Source: Actinomycetota bacterium (GTDB lineage Bacteria > Actinomycetota > Thermoleophilia > Gaiellales > Gaiellaceae). From it: 64,000 nucleotides of DNA. Under the pieces are notes generated by a model. The model had not been told where the DNA came from and searched no databases. It was given only the letters and a program-made list of their open reading frames with translations. Shown one piece after another: positions 3,197 through 4,694 of the stretch. Position 1 is the first letter of the stretch. The number at the start of each line of letters is the position of its first letter. The position numbers were made by a program, and so were the translations under genes. The DNA is taken from NCBI GenBank assembly GCA_013816245.1, contig JACDEU010000007.1, positions 6,430 through 70,429 on the forward strand. Reading direction: 5' to 3'.

Positions 3197-3310
3197 CTAG
3201 ATCTCAGAGCCGTCGCCCATGCCGTCGGGCAGGAATGCGAGTGCCGGCAGGAGGGCGGTAGCGATGATGATCGCGAAGACCGCGAAATAGATCAGCTGTG
3301 CTTTGGACAC
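3197..3310 (-). CDS. 37-residue secreted peptide candidate, partner of the TPR regulator
   Basis: A GTG-started small gene with a strong ribosome site (AAAGGGGGTG about 8 nt upstream). The product has Lys3, a hydrophobic core at about residues 5-25, an ALA signal-peptidase-I-like site after residue 25, and a hydrophilic tail FLPDGMGDGSEI. It starts 28 nt after the stop of the HTH/TPR regulator on the same strand, which is the arrangement of RRNPP receptor/peptide pairs (Rap-Phr, PlcR-PapR). The coding call rests on ribosome site, start, composition and position; the signalling role is inference. Alternatively it is simply a one-helix membrane protein. Confidence 0.6.
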   Translation of the reverse strand: MSKAQLIYFAVFAIIIATALLPALAFLPDGMGDGSEI

Positions 3311-3338
3311 GTGGGTCACCCCCTTTCGGAGCGTCGAA

Positions 3339-4694
3339 TTAGAAGCGGACGTCTTGCAGAGCGTCGGCGGCCTGGCGGTAGAGCCGGGCGGCTGCCCGGT
3401 CGTCCCCGCGTCGTGCCGCCAGATCTCCCTGTGCGACCCACGCAGACGCCCGGTGGCTCCCTGAAGAGAGCTGGTCGTATGCGCGTTCCCCAGCCCCGAA
3501 GGCCTGTTCGGCCTCGTCAAGACGGTTCTGCTCGAGCAGCGCGCGGCCCAGGACGAGCTGCGCGTTGCCGATCTCGCTCATCTCGTCCACCCGATCGCCG
3601 AGCAGCTGGAGCGCATACCGCGCCTGCTCCTCCGCGAGCGAGACTTCACCGGCGCAGAGATGGACCTGGGCGATGCCGTTCACTGCGCGCGCGGCTTCCG
3701 TGTCGCTTCCGACTTCGAGGGCGATCCGAACTGCGTCCTTCAGGAAGCCCACCGCCTCCTCCGGGTTACCGAGCAGGAAGTTGATTCCACCGAGGTTGTT
3801 CAGCAGCCGGCCGAGATTCCCTCGATCGGAGAGCTCCTCGTACGCAGCCTTCGCTCGCTCGGCGTAGGAGCGCGCGAGCACCCAGCGGCCTTCGCGGTCG
3901 GCGATGATCGACGCCTGGAAGTAGACGTCGGCCGCGGTGCGCTTGTCATTTAGGCCCTCGGCAAGCTCGAGCGCGCGCTCGACGTCCTCCCGCGCACCCT
4001 CGAGGTCGCGCCGGCGCCGATAGCAGCGCGAGCGCCACGCAAGGATGTTCGAGCGAAGCTGATCCGACGGGATCTCGGATCGCTCCGCGAGCTTGAGCGC
4101 CTCGTCGAACAGCCCGATCGCGGTCTGGATGCTGTTCAGCTTGTAGCGCGCGACACCGAGCCGGAAGAGCACGTCTGCACGCTCGACGTCCGAGAAGGTC
4201 GTGCCTTCGGCGAGCACTCGGGCGCGTTCGAGCAGAGCGATCGCCTCGCGAACCCCCCCGCCGCGCATGCGCAAGGTCGCCTCGCCGGAAAGAACACGAG
4301 CTTCGAGCTCAGGCATGCCCGTTGCCAGCACGGCTGCGCGGATCTTCTCGAACTCTTCGAGCGCCTCGTCGTTCCGACGCGCCTCTAGAAGAGCGTCCGC
4401 ACGGGCGAGACCCGCGTCGACCCGGCCGCGCTCGTCGGCCGACACGCCGTTCGCCAGAAAGCCCGGGTCGACCCCGAGCCGTTCCGCGAGCCAGACGATC
4501 GTCTCGGCGGTCGGACGGGTCTTGCCCCGCTCGATCTGGCTGACGTACTCCTTCGAGAAGCGCTCACCCGCAAGGTCGGTCTGGGTCAAAGCCGCCGCGA
4601 CCCGAAGCTGGCGCAGGCGCTCGCCGAGTCGAAGCCCTACCTGAGCGGCAGAGGCTCCCTGCTGTTGCTGACGGATGGCGGTCGAGTCAGACAT
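3339..4694 (-). CDS. XRE-type HTH regulator with C-terminal TPR domain
   Basis: A 451-residue cytosolic protein. Residues about 23-82 are a lambda-repressor-like HTH (LGERLRQLRVAAALTQTDLA, then VSQIERGKTRPTAETI). Residues about 110-450 are tandem tetratricopeptide helices with many A/L/E-rich TPR signatures such as LLNNLGGINFLLGNPEEAV. HTH-TPR proteins are typical receptors that bind a small peptide or protein partner and change DNA binding. The small peptide gene directly downstream and the repeated GGTCA-type half-sites directly upstream (4761-4835) support autoregulation by a peptide-responsive switch. The ATG at 4694 is the only sensible start. Confidence 0.85.
   Translation of the reverse strand: MSDSTAIRQQQQGASAAQVGLRLGERLRQLRVAAALTQTDLAGERFSKEYVSQIERGKTRPTAETIVWLAERLGVDPGFLANGVSADERGRVDAGLARADALLEARRNDEALEEFEKIRAAVLATGMPELEARVLSGEATLRMRGGGVREAIALLERARVLAEGTTFSDVERADVLFRLGVARYKLNSIQTAIGLFDEALKLAERSEIPSDQLRSNILAWRSRCYRRRRDLEGAREDVERALELAEGLNDKRTAADVYFQASIIADREGRWVLARSYAERAKAAYEELSDRGNLGRLLNNLGGINFLLGNPEEAVGFLKDAVRIALEVGSDTEAARAVNGIAQVHLCAGEVSLAEEQARYALQLLGDRVDEMSEIGNAQLVLGRALLEQNRLDEAEQAFGAGERAYDQLSSGSHRASAWVAQGDLAARRGDDRAAARLYRQAADALQDVRF

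Follow-up and report, generated by a model that had tools for sequence, protein, structure and literature searches.

To our knowledge, signalling by peptides through TPR receptors has so far been known solely from Firmicutes and from their phages and plasmids. Among RRNPP(A) systems, the architecture closest to the locus described here is that of NprR-NprX and PlcR-PapR, in which a receptor with an HTH domain and many TPRs is followed directly, on the same strand, by the gene for an exported-type precursor whose C-terminal tail is the likely signal, and some RRNPP(A) precursors carry that tail in tandem copies. In the arbitrium system (AimR-AimP-AimX), an HTH/TPR receptor is encoded beside a peptide gene, with one operator at the promoter of a neighbouring small RNA, the apparent output. 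Published surveys and reviews assign RRNPP systems to Firmicutes. RRNPP_detector was applied to Firmicutes and viruses only, in a study whose authors describe small molecules as the typical signals of actinobacteria (PMC10075063); one RRNPPA survey covers Firmicutes alone (PMC9765709), another makes no mention of actinobacteria (PMC12700828), and a 2016 review of quorum sensing in Actinobacteria holds no report for Thermoleophilia (PMC4748050).

Here we describe a locus that is probably an RRNPP-like peptide signalling cassette with a small RNA (sRNA) as its direct output. It lies in a 64,000-nucleotide stretch of DNA (the window) from a 3.16-Mb draft genome. Comparison among relatives shows that the small gene is coding, that its product has a conserved tail and an N-terminus of export type, and that both the receptor and a structured sRNA are linked parts. 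The RRNPP(A) features given above, from the HTH with many TPRs to the tandem tail copies, recur in the cassette. The differences are that RRNPP(A) systems belong to Bacillota whereas the cassette occurs in Thermoleophilia (Actinomycetota), where it is chromosomal and appears to have passed vertically through a family, and that its (hydrophobic)-x-D-G tail motif has not been described for Firmicutes RRNPP(A). With arbitrium it shares the layout of receptor, peptide gene and operator at an adjacent sRNA promoter, the operator here being predicted. In contrast to arbitrium, the cassette is not phage-borne, its sRNA is divergent and structured with its own terminator, it has no lysogeny context, and the sequences of the two systems are unrelated.

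The HTH/TPR regulator and the small gene downstream

The regulator, a candidate intracellular peptide receptor and transcription factor of 451 residues, is encoded on the minus strand (4694-3339) and ends in TAA. It matches HTH_31 (2.3e-12), HTH_3 and several TPR families including TPR_12 (5e-23) in Pfam, and its AlphaFold2 model (pLDDT 90.7) has an HTH domain (residues about 22-80) and 18 TPR helices, making nine TPRs; the HTH plus TPR make-up of RRNPP(A) receptors is thus present by both approaches. Among the 50 matches listed in a fold search, the PlcR-PapR7-DNA complex (3u3w) was the best bacterial regulator (E 9.6e-8, TM 0.43/0.67), outscored among these same matches by eukaryotic LGN (LGN/Pins, a peptide-binding TPR protein) and by designed TPRs. 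The receptor profile also reaches RapJ, ComR and PlcR chains. Residues R183, R227 and R267 of the receptor are invariant. No RRNPP-specific profile in Pfam or NCBIfam matched the receptor, which hit generic HTH and TPR models only, and since the host is not a member of the Firmicutes either, we treat the cassette as one that would work like RRNPP without filing it as a member. Generic actinobacterial XRE/TPR regulators of the NsdA-like kind share the broad domain make-up, and the NsdA-family match of the receptor (1.7e-7) falls far below the cut-off. Unlike the receptor, HTH/TPR paralogues that are 26-30% identical to it and encoded in the same genomes lack such a small ORF downstream, and the distant f7 relatives within the class (30-33% identity) are also without one.

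The first-pass annotation of this DNA had recorded an HTH/TPR gene followed, after a 28-nt gap, by a GTG frame with a ribosome site, and both coordinates and sequence agree with it. The small gene occupies 3197-3310 on the minus strand, from its GTG at 3310-3308, 28 nt past the regulator stop, to its own stop at 3199-3197, and is preceded by the Shine-Dalgarno sequence AAAGGGGGTGA (3316-3326, minus strand). Its 37-codon precursor, MSKAQLIYFAVFAIIIATALLPALAFLPDGMGDGSEI, reads as MSKAQLIYFAVFAIIIATALLPALA-FLPDGMGDGSEI, identical to the earlier translation, with the ALA cut site at residues 23-25 and a tail of 12 residues. This tail, FLPDGMGDGSEI (3200-3235, minus strand), contains the conserved DG motif and is the candidate mature peptide region.

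We considered whether the small frame was a chance or non-coding feature. Among 107 distinct regulators from Thermoleophilia/Gaiellales (at least 38% identity, readable downstream DNA), 100 are followed directly by a small ORF, scored as a start codon, a Shine-Dalgarno match of at least 5 nt and an ORF of 25-68 codons after the receptor stop, with a spacing that is typically 19 nt. The Shine-Dalgarno match is strong (7-9 nt) in 87 of these and weaker (5-6 nt) in 13, the window locus included. Under a uniform rule demanding a strong match and a small ORF no more than 45 nt past the stop, 60 of 72 regulators qualified (58 of 70 recognised as such, plus two truncated by the ORF caller) compared to none of the 525 further genes at these loci, two apparent matches in this control proving to be regulators with a miscalled start. 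This difference argues that the small frame is not there by chance. In addition, pN/pS was 0.41-0.60 across eight groups of close relatives (0.42 in the window's group), with an excess of third-position changes, a pattern indicating that the small gene evolves as coding sequence under purifying selection on its codons. A chance or non-coding frame is ruled out by the gene control and the pN/pS values together. The annotation had named absence beside orthologues, or change like that of non-coding DNA, as outcomes that would count against a real gene, and neither was found.

The standard small gene is missing beside seven of the 107 receptors, clearly so in four (L040, L146, L183, L186). In L012 the ORF is present, but its start is CTG or an upstream in-frame GTG, and in L139 the hydrophobic part has been deleted and the tail SWTDGH retained. 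In L062, from about 536, a longer signal-peptide ORF holding two copies of GFADGGD, possibly an extended multi-copy precursor, starts with an ATG that overlaps the stop of the receptor gene.

Nine nucleotides past the small gene begins a gene for a 302-residue lipoprotein (2279-3187, minus strand) with no match in Pfam or NCBIfam. It is probably co-transcribed with the small gene and may be part of the receptor/peptide operon; 28 related loci also have a relative shortly downstream. On the other side of the cassette, an OppC-type permease gene (5202-5942, plus strand) stops at 5942 and continues in another frame at about 5943-6080 (TNFLTGESRRSLGEVMDLANDDGLFNWWGLFFPGF...), so that the gene appears to be frameshifted or the draft sequence to contain an indel. 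We dropped this oppC as a functional link to the cassette because it lies beside the regulator in none of 80 related loci. Elsewhere, the window also holds a TPP riboswitch (62193-62296, plus strand, 60.9 bits).

Precursor tails and rival readings of the small gene

The predicted product of the small gene is short, begins with an export-type N-terminus and ends in a conserved tail. The export-type N-terminus, judged from hydropathy only, was present in all 97 precursors examined, meaning that the adjacent precursor gene typical of RRNPP(A) accompanies these receptors. The hydrophobic core is preceded by K or R in 97 of 97, and the median stretch past the core is about 15 residues. Within the last 20 residues, 78 of the 97 carry the motif [FMLWYIV]x[DSEN]G, compared to a mean of 16 and a maximum of 27 for shuffled tails, and the tail ends seen near (hydrophobic)-x-(D)-G include MSDGGG, MYDGAD, FFDGH, LWDGPA and SWPDGH. 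The tails are short and hydrophilic and are distinct between paralogues of one genome, with FSDGRD in B-type precursors and GFSSGG or GFSTGN in a third type; those of a second family end in GFHEW or GFHQW, and those of one genus in GHGGGHMNW.

Several precursors carry the tail unit more than once: five copies of S(A/M)FDGG in L103, four of SAFDGH in L117, four of MHDGHG in L026, and three copies each in L020 and L100. Judged from the sequences, these multi-copy precursors are the strongest sign of a pheromone in the data set, and the pheromone idea gains strength because the precursors show pheromone-typical features, multi-copy tails above all. Repeated pheromone units have been reported in Bacillota propeptides (PMC11343458), and RRNPPA propeptides are known to contain both repeats and pseudo-repeats of the pheromone (PMC11343458, PMC9765709). 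The quorum-sensing-like pair proposed in the first-pass annotation is upheld in part, in its conserved coding frame and its pheromone-like precursors, and goes without support from any RRNPP-specific profile.

The main rival explanation is that the small protein is a single-pass membrane partner that holds the regulator or senses for it, its tail binding or releasing the TPR protein, making a membrane-linked one-component sensor rather than a secreted signal. This fits the shortest A-type precursors: most A-type precursors have only 28-45 residues, their long hydrophobic core being followed by about 7-15 residues of tail, and a clear AxA cut site is missing from many. However, textbook signal peptides are found in B-type precursors (NAAA-EP, NAWA-KP, GAAGA-KN), several A-type precursors likewise combine a classical signal peptide and a long linker, and the three to five tail units of some precursors would be needless in an anchor. 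An anchor-like appearance is also compatible with a pheromone, as the RRNPP precursors SHP and PrgQ themselves resemble signal or anchor segments. We consider a membrane partner unlikely, though it is the strongest of the alternatives.

It is considerably less probable that the HTH/TPR protein simply controls a neighbouring gene whose product is a toxic or antimicrobial peptide or has a structural role as a small protein. The products are short, hydrophobic and secreted-looking, a superficial fit, but no conserved immunity or modification gene lies alongside, the short, hydrophilic tails share a conserved DG motif yet vary among the paralogues of one genome, and bacteriocins are seldom near-universal and vertical within a family. 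Finally, the Shine-Dalgarno sequence is the best-conserved nucleotide stretch, as it would be if the frame arose only as a side effect of a conserved leader or translation-coupling element, but we find this highly improbable given the pN/pS values and codon-position bias in the eight groups, the conservation of the tail as protein, the growth of repeats by whole codons and the retention of the small gene even where the downstream genes differ.

A divergent small RNA and a candidate operator

The first-pass annotation had recognised the receptor and peptide parts of the locus; it had missed what lies upstream. There, on the opposite strand to the regulator, is a conserved block made up of paired CTTGAC boxes, a promoter and a predicted transcript of about 170 nt. 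The boxes form the direct repeat CTTGACCTAGCTACTTGAC with a 13-nt period (4808-4826), a candidate operator whose second box is the -35 element of the sRNA promoter (4822-4850, plus strand; TTGACA, a 17-nt spacer and TAGAGT). This promoter is assigned from the sequence and from alignment A3, in which most relatives have TATAGT. The putative sRNA (4857-5024, plus strand) has three hairpins with the loops GACGCCA, GGGCCGCAG and AGCCGCAG, all invariant or almost so, and its 3′ end is an intrinsic-type terminator, a GC hairpin followed by a T-rich run.

RNAalifold gave 16 consensus pairs, 11 of them with compensatory changes. The covariation score of 0.383 compares to 0.179 in shuffled alignments, was reached by none of 500 shuffles and collapses when pairing partners are slid, and the fold z is -3.16. 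A coding frame was ruled out as the source of this conservation, as the lengths between conserved blocks vary by non-multiples of three. No Rfam family matched at its gathering threshold (best sub-threshold E 0.33), ruling out a known riboswitch or sRNA. The divergent sRNA represents a new structured RNA family.

The exact 13-nt CTTGAC pair lies upstream of 64 of 91 relatives, with near variants in seven more, and where a CTTGAC box is entirely absent, the locus is truncated or belongs to a B-type or another paralogue. In the host genome, the exact pair is single copy, at this locus, and copies with one mismatch occur at the level of a reversed-pattern control. The covariance model R1 detects the sRNA in 88 of the 129 genomes of the order: 86 have both sRNA and receptor, two the sRNA alone (one borderline), 11 the receptor alone and 30 neither, a co-occurrence (Fisher p 6e-18 over these 129 genomes) that shared ancestry confounds. 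The receptor adjoins 29 of the 30 best sRNA loci. In B paralogues and in the f2 family, receptor and peptide are present and the sRNA is not recognisable.

One genome, G185, provides a case of natural loss. Its locus (L268, G185:C5, around 4078-4467) has lost the receptor and the small gene and retained the lipoprotein gene and an sRNA relative, and the repeat beside that relative has decayed to CCCGAC...CTTGCC. Decay of the boxes after loss of the receptor is what would be expected if the receptor reads them, in a single case where the sRNA may itself be dead.

The B-type small genes (L002, L050, L054-L057, L059, L060) all begin (A/G)TGCTGCGGAA, and the CTGCGG at their start is complementary to CCGCAG, found in two invariant sRNA loops. 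The sRNA might therefore bind the start of the paralogous B-type precursor mRNA, a pairing for which conservation alone proves little, the B-type sequences being related.

Distribution and proposed mechanism

The receptor is present in 97 of 129 genomes of the order Gaiellales and in 83 of 299 genomes of the class, where 75 belong to the window's family, five to a second family of the order and three, distant in sequence, to family f7. None of 396 genomes of the phylum yielded a receptor relative outside the class. Named records with receptor relatives are all metagenome-assembled genomes with Thermoleophilia, Gaiellaceae, Gaiella or Actinobacteria titles, except for one labelled Acidobacteriota, which is probably misassigned. 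The suggestion that this system lies outside Firmicutes therefore stands: relatives were found in Thermoleophilia only, and neither in Firmicutes nor in their mobile elements as RRNPP(A) systems are. No receptor match was found in 50,697 phage records and the chromosomal neighbourhood is conserved, setting the receptor apart from a phage-encoded lysogeny receptor of the arbitrium kind, and the cassette is by all appearances chromosomal and vertically inherited. Among the matches listed for plasmids, there were only Streptomyces regulators of 28-29% identity. One of these, on a plasmid of Streptomyces sp. ADI95-16 (L273, 2841-3492), is a 29% identical HTH/TPR regulator followed by two small ORFs of 71 and 70 residues whose N-termini are signal-like, and a similar arrangement of regulator and small ORF may thus exist in Streptomyces.

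We propose that the regulator and small gene would form one operon, and that the precursor would enter or cross the membrane, where the tail, or each tail repeat, could be cut free and accumulate outside the cell. The tail may then re-enter through an oligopeptide permease and bind the concave face of the TPR domain; the host genome has genes for an M50 protease and for at least ten oligopeptide-binding proteins of the SBP_bac_5 type, complete or nearly so. In a tethered AlphaFold2 model of receptor and precursor, built from 26 in-frame loci by treating the receptor stop codon as an amino acid (alignment A2), the receptor folded well and the tail was undocked (pLDDT 23-56). The receptor would bind the paired CTTGAC repeat and switch the sRNA promoter, perhaps together with its own, and the sRNA, by way of its invariant loops, would pass the response on to its targets. 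Paralogous receptors with precursor tails of their own may act as separate channels within one cell.

The larger claim, that most of one Actinomycetota family carries a three-part chromosomal module of exported peptide, HTH/TPR receptor and a dedicated structured sRNA, with the genome's sole exact copy of the candidate operator in its promoter, is one we advance tentatively, as somewhat short of probable. The first-pass annotation had supposed the pair to be possibly undescribed, and we found no description of the cassette in the open-access literature. The hypothesis is cheap to test because the short tails can be synthesized directly. If true, Firmicutes would no longer be the only known home of peptide-pheromone/TPR-receptor systems, and an arbitrium-like sRNA output would for the first time be known from a cellular lineage. 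With the receptor/peptide pair carried by about 90% of the sampled genomes in one family, mostly uncultured soil bacteria, peptide language could then be older, or of repeated origin.
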